Assembly (NCBI RefSeq): GCF_900177245.1
Contig: NZ_FXBM01000001.1
Coordinates: forward strand, 558,001-622,000
Reading direction: 5' to 3'
Origin: Rathayibacter oskolensis
GTDB lineage: Bacteria > Actinomycetota > Actinomycetes > Actinomycetales > Microbacteriaceae
DNA length: 64,000 nt
A program made the translations under genes and the position numbers. Every line of letters starts with the position of its first letter. Position 1 is the stretch's first letter. Positions 47,412 through 52,617 of the stretch are shown here, piece by piece. Under the pieces are notes generated by a model. It saw only the letters and a list, made by a program, of their open reading frames with translations. It had not been told where the DNA came from and made no database searches.

Positions 47412-48380
47412 ATGACCGGAGCCCGAATGACGCTCGCCGTGCTGTCCAACGACCGCCTCGATCCCTGGATCAACTGGACGACCCTCGGGCCGCCGCTGCT
47501 GCGACCGCTCGCGGCGCGGGGAGGCCGCCTGGTCTCGCCTCAGGCGTCGCCCCGCTCCTGGCCGGGTCTGGTGCGGGAGCTGCGCGGGGCCGACTCCGTC
47601 TTCTGGATGCAGCAGAGCGCCCGACCGGAGTGGCCCCTCGTGGCCGCCTCGCTCGCGGCGGGCAGCGCGACCCGGTCGGCCTTCGTCGTGGACCCCTGGC
47701 TCGTCGATCTGCCGCGGATCGCGCTGGCGGCGCGCCTCCAGCGCCTGGACCCGCTCTTCGTGCCCTTCAGCGAGGGCGCGGAGGAGCTCGTGCGCCGTCA
47801 TCCTCGAGGCCGCTTCGAGTGGCTCCCGTTCGGCGTCGACACCGAGGTGTTCACGCCGGGCAGCGGTGAGCGCGACGTGTTCGCCTTCTGGATGGGCAGG
47901 CGGCACGAACCGCTGCACCGCGCTCTGCTCGACTACTGCGAGGCCCGGGGGCTGCTCTACGAGTACCGCCGCGAGGGGCGCCTGCTGACCCCGCGCGAGC
48001 TGGGCGAGCTCGCCGGCCGCTCCCGCTACTTCGTGGTCACGCCGCCGCTCGCCGAGGATCACGCGCGCACCGGCGGTTACAGCCCCCTGGTGATGCGCTA
48101 CCTCGAGGGTCTCGCGGCGGGTGCGCGGCTGCTGGGGGTGCTCCCGGGGAGCGGGGAGTACGAGCGGCTGCTCCCGCTCGACGCGATCCTCCAGGTCGAC
48201 GTCGACGGCGCCGATCTGGCGGCGCGGCTCGACGCCGACGCCGACGCCGGTCACGAGGCGGCGACGGCTCGCGCGAGCCGCCATGTGCGGACGCACCACT
48301 CCTGGGCGCGGCGGGCCGAGCAGATCGGGGAGCGGCTCGCTACCGGACGTCCGATCATCCAGCCGCCGCCCCCGGCCTGA
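47412..48380 (+). CDS. Glycosyltransferase-like protein, GT-B fold
   Basis: The 322-aa protein resembles CgeB/GT4-type glycosyltransferases. Central motifs are DPLFVPFSEGAEELVRRHPR, RFEWLPFGVDTEVFTPGSGE (the hinge segment of GT-B enzymes) and a C-terminal PLVMRYLEGLAAGARLLGVL with the donor-site Glu. The N-terminal half is Arg/Trp-rich (LSNDRLDPWINWTTLGPPLL). The start may be 47412 or the ATG at 47427. No neighbouring polysaccharide genes are present, so acceptor and donor are unknown. Confidence 0.75.
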   Translation: MTGARMTLAVLSNDRLDPWINWTTLGPPLLRPLAARGGRLVSPQASPRSWPGLVRELRGADSVFWMQQSARPEWPLVAASLAAGSATRSAFVVDPWLVDLPRIALAARLQRLDPLFVPFSEGAEELVRRHPRGRFEWLPFGVDTEVFTPGSGERDVFAFWMGRRHEPLHRALLDYCEARGLLYEYRREGRLLTPRELGELAGRSRYFVVTPPLAEDHARTGGYSPLVMRYLEGLAAGARLLGVLPGSGEYERLLPLDAILQVDVDGADLAARLDADADAGHEAATARASRHVRTHHSWARRAEQIGERLATGRPIIQPPPPA

Positions 48381-48416
48381 CGGGTGAACGGCGGACCGCC
48401 GGCGCGGGTGAACGGC

Positions 48417-48452
48417 GGAGGGCCCGCCCGCGCGAGCGCGGACGGGCTCTCC
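48417..48452. terminator. Hairpin between the convergent glycosyltransferase and hsp20 genes
   Basis: GGAGGGCCCGCCCGCG and CGCGGACGGGCTCTCC pair over 16 positions with two imperfect pairs and a CGAG loop. Confidence 0.6.
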
Positions 48453-48463
48453 GGAGACGAGGA

Positions 48464-48904
48464 CTACTCGGAGCGGGACTCGCCGAGCTGAACCTGCTCG
48501 GGCCTCGCGTTCGAGACGACCTCGATCCGGCGCGGCTTCGCCTTCTCGCTGACCGGGATGGTGACCGAGAGCACACCGTTGTCGTACGAGGCCGAGATGC
48601 GCTCGGTGTCGACTCCCTGGCCGAGGCTCAGCTGGCGGACGAAGGTCGCCGACTGGCGCTCCCTGGTGATCCAGGTCACGCCCTCGCCGCTCGCGACGGT
48701 CCGCTGGGCGCGGATCGTCAGCAGCTGACCGTCGACGTCGACGTCGACCGACCCGGGGTCGATCCCCGGCAGGTCGGCGGTCAGGACGTAGTGGTCGCCG
48801 TCGCGGTAGAGGTCGATCGGCATGCGCCGCGGCCCCTGGCCGGAGCCGAGGAGGGCGGAGGCGACGCGATCGAGTTCGCGGATGGGGTCGTAGGTGACAG
48901 CCAT
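48464..48904 (-). CDS. hsp20: Hsp20/alpha-crystallin small heat-shock protein
   Basis: This ATP-independent chaperone holds unfolding proteins. The 146-aa protein has a short N-terminal region (YDPIRELDRVASALLGSGQG) and an alpha-crystallin domain (RMPIDLYRDGDHYVLTADLP, VDVDVDGQLLTIRAQRTVAS). The C-terminal part of the domain is LSVTIPVSEKAKPRRIEVVS. GGAGTG lies 6 nt before the ATG. The promoter region carries both a HAIR-like and a CIRCE element, so repression by HspR and HrcA is expected. Confidence 0.93.
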   Translation of the reverse strand: MAVTYDPIRELDRVASALLGSGQGPRRMPIDLYRDGDHYVLTADLPGIDPGSVDVDVDGQLLTIRAQRTVASGEGVTWITRERQSATFVRQLSLGQGVDTERISASYDNGVLSVTIPVSEKAKPRRIEVVSNARPEQVQLGESRSE

Positions 48905-48946
48905 AGAAATCACTCCATTCAGTCGTGCAACGGATCAATTCCAAGA

Positions 48947-48967
48947 GTTGAGCCGACCTGACTCAAC
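48947..48967. promoter_or_regulatory. HAIR-like operator (HspR) upstream of hsp20
   Basis: GTTGAGC-N7-ACTCAAC matches the HspR inverted-repeat consensus CTTGAGT-N7-ACTCAAG at 11 of 14 arm positions with the right spacing. It lies 43 nt upstream of the hsp20 ATG. Confidence 0.75.
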
Positions 48968-48976
48968 ACGAACAAT

Positions 48977-49003
48977 TTAGCACTCCACAGGCGAGAGTGC
49001 CAA
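48977..49003. promoter_or_regulatory. CIRCE operator (HrcA) upstream of hsp20
   Basis: TTAGCACTC-N9-GAGTGCCAA matches the CIRCE consensus TTAGCACTC-N9-GAGTGCTAA at 17 of 18 arm positions with exact spacing. It lies 73 nt upstream of the hsp20 ATG. Confidence 0.88.
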
Positions 49004-49140
49004 GTGATGACGTCCCCGATCCGCCTACTTCGTAACCTGCTCGAAACAGAGCCGAGCGATCCAGTTCGTAGGGTCGAGAGCACGACCGATTCAGTGCAAC
49101 CACAGACCGGTTTCCCAGCGAACATGAGTTAGGACATCGA

Positions 49141-52100
49141 TTGCCGATCCACCCCTCCCACCCTCCCCTCGTCCGTCGCGCTGAGAGGCGCATCCTCGCC
49201 GGCCTCGCCGTTCTGGGAGTCGCGGCCACCGCCGCCTTCGCCACCAGCGGCGCCTCGGCGGCCCCCCTCGCAGGAAGCGCCTCGGTCATCGGCGGGCTCT
49301 CCTCGATGCAGAGCTTCGAGGACGGCGACTACGTCGTCACGCTCGTGGAGCCCGCCGCGGCGACCTACGAGGGAACCGATGCGCGGTTCGCGCGGACCGC
49401 TCCCGACCAGGGGACGCAGCTCCAGGCGCGCTCGGCCCCCGTCGAGGACTACTCGGCTCACCTCGAGCGGCGGCAGGACGACGTCGCCGCCGCCGTCGAC
49501 GCCGAGATCGGCTACCACTACACGGTGGCCCTCAACGGCTTCTCGGCCGAACTGACCGGGGCCCAGGCGAGCCGCCTGGCGAACCGCAAGGACGTGGCCC
49601 AGGTCCGCGAGATCGAGGACCTCACCCTCGACCGCGCGCAGTCGACCGCACTGCAGTCGGCTCCGTCGGCATCGGGCATCCCCGTCGCCGACACCGGCCA
49701 GGAGTCGTCCACGAGCTTCCTCGGCCTCGACGGCGAGAACGGAGTCTGGGACGAGCTCGGCGGGATCGACGACGCGGGCAAGGGCGTCGTCGTCGGAGTC
49801 ATCGACTCCGGCATCGCCCCCGAGAACCCGTCCTTCGCCGGTGCTCCGCTCGCGACCTCGCCCGGCGCCGCGCCCTACACCGACGGCGAGACCGTCACCT
49901 ACGCCAAGTCCGACGGCAGCTCGTTCGTGGGAGCCTGCGCGAGCGGCGCCGACGCGGCGCAGCAGTGGACCGGCGACGAGTGCAACCAGAAGCTGATCGG
50001 CGCGCGCTGGTTCCTCGGCGCCTCCGAGGTGGCCGGCTCGGGCGACAACCCCGAGTACCTCTCGCCGCGCGACGCCGACGGACACGGCTCACACACCGCG
50101 AGCACGGCCGCCGGCAACGCGGGCGTCGACGCGAGTGTCGACGGCTACGACTACGGCCTCATCTCGGGCGTGGCGCCGGCCGCCAAGGTCGCCGCCTACA
50201 AGGTCTGCTGGAACGGCGACGTCGACGGCACGGACGACGACGACTTCTGCTCCGGCCCCGGCATCCTCGCCGCCATCGACTCGGCGACCAGCGACGGCGT
50301 CGACGTGATCAACTTCTCGATCGGCGGCGGAGCGGCCACCTCCACGCTCACGCTCATCGACGAGGCGTTCCTCAACGCCGCCGCGGCGGGCGTCTTCGTG
50401 GCGGCCTCGGCCGGCAACTCCGGCCCCGGCGACTCGACCCTCGACCACGCCTCGCCGTGGTACACGACGGTCGCCGCCTCCTCCATCCCGACCTACACCG
50501 CCACCGCCACCCTCGGTGACGGACAGGCGTTCCCCGGAGGATCGATCACCGTCCACGAGGACGTCACGGGTCCGCTCGTGAACAGCGCCGACGTCGCGCT
50601 CCCCGGGACCGAGACTCCCGAGATCTGCGAGACCGGCACCCTCGACCCCGAGAAGGTGGCCGGCACGATCGTCGCCTGCACGGCGGGCACGACCACCCGC
50701 GTCTCGAAGTCGGCCGAGGTCGAGCGGGCGGGGGGCATCGGCATGCTGCTGCTCAACCCGTTCCCGAACGCGCTGCACGTCGACGACCACTCCGTCCCGA
50801 GCATCCAGATCGACTCGGAGGCCTACGACCCGATCACCGAGTACGCCTCGACGGCGGGTGCGACCGTGACGCTGAGCGAGGGCAACTCGTCCGGCACCCC
50901 GATCGCCGTGCCCCAGGTCGCCGGCTTCTCGTCGCGCGGCCCCGCGGAGGCAGACGGTGCCGACGTGCTCAAGCCCGACCTCACGGCGCCCGGCGTCGCG
51001 ATCCTGGCCGACAGCTTCAACGCCGAGGGCGACGACCCGGCCTTCGCGTTCGAGTCCGGCACGTCGATGTCGTCGCCGCACATCGCGGGTCTCGCCGCGC
51101 TGATCCTCGGAGCCAGCCCGAACGCGTCGCCGTCCGCGGTCAAGTCGGCCATGATGACGACCTCGTACGACAGCGTCGACCAGTCGGGGAACGCCTCCGA
51201 GGACGTCTTCGCGCAGGGTGCCGGCCACGTCGACCCGACCGCGTTCCTCGACCCCGGTCTGCTCTACGACAGCGGCCCGAGCGACTGGATCGCGTTCCTC
51301 AAGGGCGCGGGCTACGTCTTCAACCCCGACCCCGCGATCGACCCGATCGAGGCGATCGACCCGTCCGACCTGAACCAGGCCTCGATCGCGATCGGCGCAC
51401 TGGCCGGAACGCAGACGATCACCCGCACGGTGACGTCGACCGGACCGGGCACGTACACCGCCTCGCTCGAGATCCCGGGCATCGACACCGTCGTGTCGCC
51501 CTCCACGCTCTCGTTCACGGGAGCAGGGCAGACCGCCGAGTACACGGTGACCTTCACGACCGCCGACGCCGAGCTGTCGGAGTTCGCGACCGGCTACCTC
51601 ACCTGGTCGAGCGCCGAGCACGAGGTGCGCAGCCCCGTCGCCGTGCGCCCCGTCCTGCTCGATGCGCCCTACGAGGTGTCGGGCTCCGGCTCGACCGGGT
51701 CGACCACGGCCACGATCACGCCCGGAGTCGACGGCGCACTGCCGCTCTCGCCGAGCGGACTCGCCGAGGGGGTCCTCGCCGAGGACGCCACGGCGTCCGA
51801 CGGGCACTCGGGGACGCTGCCGGCGGGAACGACCCTGGTGACGACGGTCGAGGTGCCGGAGGGCGCGGAGTTCGCTCGGTTCGACCTCGACTCGCTCGAC
51901 GACACCGCGGATCTCGATCTGTACGTCGAGCTGCTCGACGCCGCCGGTGAGCCCGTCTCGCAGGCGGTCTCGGCGACCGCCTCCGCCGACGAGCGCGTCG
52001 ATCTCGAAGAGCCGGAGGCGGGGACCTACCGGGTCACGGCCGACATGTACGCGGTGGGATCGGAGTCGGCGGTCACCTTCGACCTGCGCAGCTTCGTCAT

Positions 52101-52617
52101 CACGCCCGAGGGAGGCGTGGGATCGCTCACGACCGAGCCCGAGGTCGTCGACGCGGTGCAGGGCGAGCCGACCGACTACACGATCTCGTGGTCGGACCTC
52201 GCCGGGCCCGCCTCCTACCTCGGTCGCATCGCCTACTCGGACTCCGGGCTGGCGACGCTCGTGAGCGTGGCGGTGACCGAGGACGTGACGCCGACGCCGA
52301 CCGCGACTCCGGAGCCCACGGGCACGCCCGAGCCGACGGCGACGCCGGAGCCGACCGCGACTCCCGAGCCGACCGTCTCGCCGGAGCCGACCTCGACGCC
52401 GACCGCCGGTCCGACCGCCGTGCCGGTGCCCACCTCCACGCCGACGGCCGGACCGGGCGCGCCCGGCCACGCCGGCGGCCCGGGCAGCCTGCCCTTCACC
52501 GGGTGGAACGGCGGCCTCCTGGGAGCCTCGGCCCTGGCGCTCATCGGCGCCGGGGTGCTGATCACCGGCGTCCGTCGCCGGGCTCTCGCACAGCAGGAGG
52601 GGGCGGGCTCGGAGTAG
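49141..52617 (+). CDS. Cell-wall-anchored subtilisin-like serine protease (S8)
   Basis: The 1158-aa exported protease starts at TTG with AGGA upstream. It has a signal peptide (residues about 20-42), an I9-type propeptide and an S8 catalytic domain: Asp222 in VVVGVIDSGIAPENPSF, His315 in DADGHGSHTASTAAG and Ser642 in ESGTSMSSPHIAGLAALI. A protease-associated domain is inserted at about 480-585. Fibronectin-like domains follow, then repeats of the type PEPTATPEPT and a sortase signal SLPFTG with membrane helix and basic tail. It should sit covalently on the peptidoglycan and cleave extracellular proteins. Confidence 0.94.
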   Translation: MPIHPSHPPLVRRAERRILAGLAVLGVAATAAFATSGASAAPLAGSASVIGGLSSMQSFEDGDYVVTLVEPAAATYEGTDARFARTAPDQGTQLQARSAPVEDYSAHLERRQDDVAAAVDAEIGYHYTVALNGFSAELTGAQASRLANRKDVAQVREIEDLTLDRAQSTALQSAPSASGIPVADTGQESSTSFLGLDGENGVWDELGGIDDAGKGVVVGVIDSGIAPENPSFAGAPLATSPGAAPYTDGETVTYAKSDGSSFVGACASGADAAQQWTGDECNQKLIGARWFLGASEVAGSGDNPEYLSPRDADGHGSHTASTAAGNAGVDASVDGYDYGLISGVAPAAKVAAYKVCWNGDVDGTDDDDFCSGPGILAAIDSATSDGVDVINFSIGGGAATSTLTLIDEAFLNAAAAGVFVAASAGNSGPGDSTLDHASPWYTTVAASSIPTYTATATLGDGQAFPGGSITVHEDVTGPLVNSADVALPGTETPEICETGTLDPEKVAGTIVACTAGTTTRVSKSAEVERAGGIGMLLLNPFPNALHVDDHSVPSIQIDSEAYDPITEYASTAGATVTLSEGNSSGTPIAVPQVAGFSSRGPAEADGADVLKPDLTAPGVAILADSFNAEGDDPAFAFESGTSMSSPHIAGLAALILGASPNASPSAVKSAMMTTSYDSVDQSGNASEDVFAQGAGHVDPTAFLDPGLLYDSGPSDWIAFLKGAGYVFNPDPAIDPIEAIDPSDLNQASIAIGALAGTQTITRTVTSTGPGTYTASLEIPGIDTVVSPSTLSFTGAGQTAEYTVTFTTADAELSEFATGYLTWSSAEHEVRSPVAVRPVLLDAPYEVSGSGSTGSTTATITPGVDGALPLSPSGLAEGVLAEDATASDGHSGTLPAGTTLVTTVEVPEGAEFARFDLDSLDDTADLDLYVELLDAAGEPVSQAVSATASADERVDLEEPEAGTYRVTADMYAVGSESAVTFDLRSFVITPEGGVGSLTTEPEVVDAVQGEPTDYTISWSDLAGPASYLGRIAYSDSGLATLVSVAVTEDVTPTPTATPEPTGTPEPTATPEPTATPEPTVSPEPTSTPTAGPTAVPVPTSTPTAGPGAPGHAGGPGSLPFTGWNGGLLGASALALIGAGVLITGVRRRALAQQEGAGSE

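Follow-up and report, generated by a model that had tools for sequence, protein, structure and literature searches.

The Campylobacter jejuni promoters Pgro and Phrc are co-repressed by HspR and HrcA, according to the available part of PMC7464140, and cooperative binding of the two proteins has been demonstrated there. The same source describes Helicobacter pylori as having the two repressors on shared heat-shock promoters with CIRCE in the core promoter; cooperativity is said to be absent in that species, where HspR and HrcA bind independently and without interaction. Among actinobacteria, Mycobacterium tuberculosis offers an Hsp20-family gene, acr2, as a target of HspR, which uses DnaK as co-repressor; the HrcA targets given in the available text of that report are groES, groEL1, groEL2 and Rv0991c, and acr2 is not named among them (PMC8223512). 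The HspR/HrcA/ClgR network of Bifidobacterium breve brings both repressors and both operators together in one actinobacterium. Within the accessible portion of the account, however, HAIR is located at dnaK, clgR and clpB and CIRCE at groEL, groES and hrcA, and a consensus motif is described as absent at the hsp20 promoter (PMC9004370). Dual HrcA/HspR control had been described as known for actinobacterial groEL/clpB-type loci in a sequence-only reading of the DNA analysed here. We could not confirm this in the literature, where, as far as the available texts extend, such co-regulation is demonstrated for Campylobacter and described for Helicobacter.

The window, a 64 000-nucleotide stretch of the Rathayibacter oskolensis genome, resembles these systems in some respects and departs from them in others. 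As in C. jejuni, a single promoter carries HAIR-like and CIRCE operators, pointing to the same two repressor families, and the putative HrcA site lies over the core promoter/start site. Binding-site spacings of 27 and 11 bp are given for C. jejuni in the available part of the paper, compared with 9 bp between the operators in the window (48968-48976). The same text places several HspR sites upstream of the C. jejuni promoter elements, whereas in the window a single HAIR follows the predicted promoter, and the Campylobacter-type order, with the HspR site upstream and the HrcA site over the core promoter, was not found there. The target in the window is hsp20, in a member of the Actinomycetota, in contrast to Pgro and Phrc; H. 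pylori likewise belongs to another phylum. We found no description of HAIR and CIRCE together on hsp20, or of such an operator order, in searches of an open-access library. Two-repressor heat-shock promoters are already known; the hsp20 target and the order of the parts appear to be undescribed within that search. Features of the locus are listed in Table 1.

Table 1. Features of the hsp20 promoter region, in window coordinates
Feature	Position	Strand	Details
hsp20, 146-aa small heat-shock protein	48467..48904	minus	ATG at 48904, stop codon just below 48467
HAIR operator (putative HspR site)	48947..48967	no strand	core TTGAG-N9-CTCAA at 48948-48966, exact
Predicted -10 element	48974..48979	minus	TAAATT with extended TGC; first three bases are the CIRCE end
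CIRCE operator (putative HrcA site)	48977..49003	no strand	one arm position off consensus
Predicted -35 element	48998..49003	minus	TTGGCA, which also forms the end of the upstream CIRCE arm; 18 bp from the -10
Subtilase-like gene, divergent neighbour of hsp20	49141..52617	plus	I9, S8, PA and fn3 domains; possibly with its own promoter

The hsp20 product matched the Pfam HSP20 family (PF00011; E 1.8e-22, 79.8 bits against a cut-off of 20.8), indicating an alpha-crystallin domain. Its counterparts in the four nearest genomes were 88-97 % identical. Rathayibacter sp. VKM Ac-2754, the closest relative with a name, shared 93 % identity in hsp20 and 91 % in the divergent subtilase, and one further genome carried an hsp20 97 % identical to that of the window. 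Read in the hsp20 direction, the CIRCE is TTGGCACTC-N9-GAGTGCTAA (49003-48977), which matches the consensus TTAGCACTC-N9-GAGTGCTAA with one mismatch. The HAIR follows as GTTGAGT-N7-GCTCAAC (48967-48947), agreeing with the Streptomyces consensus CTTGAGT-N7-ACTCAAG at 11 of 14 arm positions, and 42 bp separate it from the hsp20 start codon. Re-examination of the sequence therefore bore out the sequence-only reading on the presence and position of both elements at the hsp20 promoter, on the arm deviations (three in HAIR, one in CIRCE) and on the spacing between them.

The CIRCE lay well outside chance expectation. Dinucleotide shuffles of the 64 kb gave an expectation of 0.00 for sites with up to three mismatches, and a matrix trained on 22 groEL/groES/hrcA sites scored it at 32.2, against 2.7 for the runner-up. 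It was kept in three of the four nearest genomes. In the fourth, L183 (hsp20 91 % identical), the upstream arm has decayed, with TTGGC, the downstream arm and HAIR still in place, and this promoter reads as a natural near-single-operator version. A role for CIRCE as a messenger element was rejected because the predicted -10 sits at its downstream end, and a terminator-like prediction near hsp20 proved to be the CIRCE palindrome itself.

A dual-core scan using one genome per species returned at least 118 loci, with titles mostly from Micrococcales, some from Actinomycetaceae and a few from elsewhere. Among the matches listed, 108 of 118 were at hsp20: 107 by an adjacency rule and L022 on inspection. 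Eleven of the listed matches failed the rule, including L022, whose protein match begins at residue 19. The pattern stood at groES and/or groEL in L015, L077, L093 and L110 (Arcobacter and Eggerthellaceae records among them), at clpB in L044, and near the locus end in L006, L024, L027 (with an hsp20-like start) and L085; L030, a Pseudomonas record, is probably a chance match. The clpB site, from Salinibacterium soli (L044:5253-5297), is a tightly packed dual operator with a core gap of 5 bp, and the short-gap dual sites of G057 and G145, genomes without an hsp20 match, resemble it. Outside the Micrococcales, the Eggerthellaceae groES locus (L093:1352-1415) carries HAIR and CIRCE with HAIR farther from the gene.

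Within Rathayibacter's family, the exact dual pattern was present in 72 of 299 genomes (backward control 0), and hsp20 itself in 169. The dual site lay 18-87 bp from hsp20 in all 64 genomes where hsp20 had listed coordinates and shared the contig; adjacency was assumed for six others, where hsp20 had no listed coordinates (G230, G271, G039, G053, G128 and G183), and G145 and G057, with the pattern and no hsp20 match at E 1e-8, were left out of the hsp20 promoter count. A sample of the phylum yielded the exact dual pattern in just 3 of 296 genomes (the centre genome, G090 from its family, and G382). Given these family and phylum counts, the pattern is mainly a Micrococcales trait and above all one of Microbacteriaceae. 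Among 90 fetched promoters, CIRCE (up to three mismatches) was present in 48 and the HAIR core (up to one mismatch) in 66, compared with 0 and 0.5 in letter shuffles. The dual HAIR and CIRCE hsp20 promoter is widespread in Microbacteriaceae and other Micrococcales; the pairing, called noteworthy in the sequence-only reading, is not confined to the window.

The order CIRCE, HAIR, hsp20 seen in the window was shared by 97 of the 118 loci among the matches listed (98 with L022), and we refer to it as the main layout. The reverse order, HAIR, CIRCE, hsp20, occurred among the matches listed in ten loci of a second hsp20 lineage. In a tree of 103 Hsp20 proteins (the window and 102 of the 107 loci among the matches listed, five being dropped for short proteins), a single branch separated the two orders, so that each order is tied to a single hsp20 lineage; the tree was built quickly and has long branches, which leave its details unsure. 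The gap between cores was 13-15 in 86 of 97 main-layout loci among the matches listed, although 0-30 was allowed in the search, and the distance from CIRCE end to HAIR core was 10-14 in 96 of these 97. Operator spacing in the family is narrow, yet without strict phasing: in 11 of 22 dual promoters recovered under looser limits this distance was 15-17, about half a helical turn away. Fixed helical phasing was accordingly rejected as support for cooperativity, and a rigidly phased contact is disfavoured. The two repressors may occupy CIRCE and HAIR jointly.

The only promoter-like site predicted within 48300-49300 was on the minus strand and coincided with CIRCE. Support for the -10 came from a set of 131 distinct hsp20 promoters, all with the CIRCE core exact, obtained by deduplicating the 97 main-layout loci among the matches listed and 44 fetched promoters, nine of the latter having no HAIR core. 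In this set of listed and fetched promoters, TA followed GAGTGC in 131 of 131, and TAnnnT occupied the -10 place in 114, versus none of 22 CIRCE sites at groEL, groES or hrcA (the latter counted by eye). The sixth -10 base, which falls outside CIRCE, was T in 114 of the same 131. The upstream CIRCE arm read [TC]TGGCA in 102 of the 131 listed and fetched promoters; the clade's other CIRCE arms often read TTGGCA as well, making the -35 evidence weaker than that for the -10. Since TTGGCA forms the end of the upstream arm in the window, the off-consensus CIRCE position is part of a -35-like hexamer. Transcription would start at about the first HAIR bases, so that HAIR would cover the predicted start site and the 5' end of the transcript. 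What is new in this anatomy is that, in the main layout, the CIRCE arms contain promoter-like elements and the predicted start site falls at HAIR.

Both repressors are encoded in Rathayibacter sp. VKM Ac-2754, which carries HrcA (TIGR00331, 290.7 bits against a cut-off of 197.2) and, behind dnaJ, HspR (NF047375, 135.9 bits against 105; L165 3348-3788). The search for hspR covered this one genome, and hrcA was present in all 12 relatives' genomes tested; by extension from these relatives, the window's own organism presumably has both genes. In VKM Ac-2754 all five exact HAIR cores were at hsp20, dnaK (two) and two ClpB/Clp-like ATPases, the latter scoring high yet under the NCBIfam ClpB cut-off. 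Its four CIRCE sites with up to three mismatches were at hsp20, groEL (two cores), groES and hrcA, and by coordinates hsp20 was the sole promoter with both operators. The 12 genomes were picked among dual-pattern matches, and hsp20 is therefore dual in them by construction.

We consider it very probable that the 57-bp segment is a two-repressor hsp20 operator joining the HspR and HrcA circuits, at which full transcription would follow only where both repressors are relieved. HrcA bound at CIRCE would keep RNA polymerase off, given that CIRCE overlaps the predicted -35 and extended -10. HspR with its co-repressor DnaK, bound at HAIR, would cover the predicted start site and the beginning of the transcript and so supply a second block. 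Upon heat or protein damage, DnaK would be drawn from HspR and HrcA would be weakened. The state of HrcA is set by GroEL, by temperature directly, or by both, and Campylobacter HrcA is reportedly a thermosensor, this being the subject of one paper by its title. The gene would then be fully transcribed only once both repressors had been relieved, and hsp20 would be a meeting place of the two circuits. HrcA and HspR binding, the start site and the both-must-leave logic are our inferences.

A redundant, graded form of control shares this two-repressor reading and differs in logic only: each repressor would suffice for partial repression, and relief of either would give a partial, additive output. 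Its chances fall somewhat short of even. One-operator promoters are frequent in the family, which fits this reading: the 69 hsp20 promoters without the exact dual pattern comprised 23 with HAIR only, 5 with CIRCE only, 19 with neither and 22 that were dual under looser limits (within 250 bp, CIRCE with up to three mismatches, HAIR core with up to one), these limits deciding the classes. L225, with HAIR at two mismatches, was thereby classed as CIRCE only, and L266 was misanchored, its match beginning at residue 16. The decayed CIRCE arm of L183, a near relative, also fits partial redundancy. The separability of the operators within the family, together with L183, indicates that dual control is dispensable. 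Against graded control, 92 of 139 assessed family hsp20 promoters counted as dual (70 exact and 22 looser, from the closer homologues), for which reason both operators appear to be under selection; this may overstate the dual share, as the 30 of 169 hsp20-bearing genomes outside the assessed set mostly had weaker hsp20 matches. In addition, each main-layout operator overlaps either the predicted promoter or the predicted start site, a position at which it should block. Because the family has natural one-operator and no-operator versions, the logic could be tested comparatively and not through mutants only.

It is unlikely that CIRCE is the only functional operator, with HAIR a relic or the site of another MerR-type protein. 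The three deviations from the Streptomyces consensus speak for that reading, and sites with three mismatches are expected 0.77 times by chance per 64 kb, so the mismatch count alone is not significant. The core, however, is exact in the window, where 0.42 cores with up to one mismatch are expected, and the site scored 26.8 bits with a HAIR matrix, against 1.7 for the runner-up in the 64 kb; that matrix was trained on 32 dnaK/clp-like sites only, from 12 related genomes, and was sharpened by the selection of training sites for an exact core. The core was kept in all four nearest genomes, and single-operator promoters of the family have retained HAIR more often than CIRCE (23 versus 5). The idea of a chance repeat, permissible on the mismatch count alone, was overturned by this conservation and the matrix score. 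Among relatives, 41 of 44 exact HAIR cores across 11 genomes were at dnaK, clp-like or hsp20 genes, the three misses being L175, L178 and L179; G007, with three of its 13 exact cores examined, was excluded from this count, and its two dnaK sites contributed to the matrix. One of the 12 genomes, G004, had no exact core at dnaK, and an exact-core search therefore misses HAIR sites. Related genomes often show the three deviations themselves at their dnaK and clp HAIR sites. The earlier count of three off-consensus positions was right, and the window HAIR is normal for its clade and not degenerate. Searches with the Streptomyces consensus would under-call HAIR sites in this clade.

There is still less to recommend the suggestion that the operators serve the divergent subtilase gene also or instead, which we regard as improbable. 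The S8 gene and hsp20 do keep their head-to-head arrangement in each of the four nearest genomes (loci L103/L182, L181, L183 and L184). Against this, the operators are at the hsp20 end, with about 137 bp from CIRCE to the S8 start, the single promoter-like site is on the minus strand, and the dual site accompanies hsp20 in loci of many genera. An operator role at the S8 gene was considered and found no support. A separate block nearer S8, at about 49015-49075 in the interval between CIRCE and the subtilase gene, shows strong conservation across the four nearest genomes, around CGACCCTACGAACT-GATCGC and GTTACGAAGT in the hsp20 direction; it may be the subtilase promoter, or perhaps a further regulatory site. 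The subtilase-like protein also showed a PPC match slightly below cut-off and, by eye, a Thr/Pro/Glu repeat and an LPFTG-like end. Finally, chance inverted repeats, to which the HAIR mismatch counts taken alone might point, are a negligible prospect given that the joint pattern arose in none of 100 shuffles and in none of 299 family genomes in the backward control, and recurs at hsp20 across genera.

Returning to a two-repressor operator at hsp20, we tentatively speculate that the Micrococcales gene is a coincidence detector, its product appearing only upon simultaneous exhaustion of the DnaK pool, as read by HspR, and of the GroEL/HrcA arm, and that the opposite operator orders might reflect two origins or one rearrangement. 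Each of the two classic heat-shock repressors senses its own chaperone machine, and in the available portions of the actinobacterial reports the two control different genes. A narrowly spaced dual promoter, apparently written into one operator, would be a natural small circuit for combining two signals of chaperone capacity.
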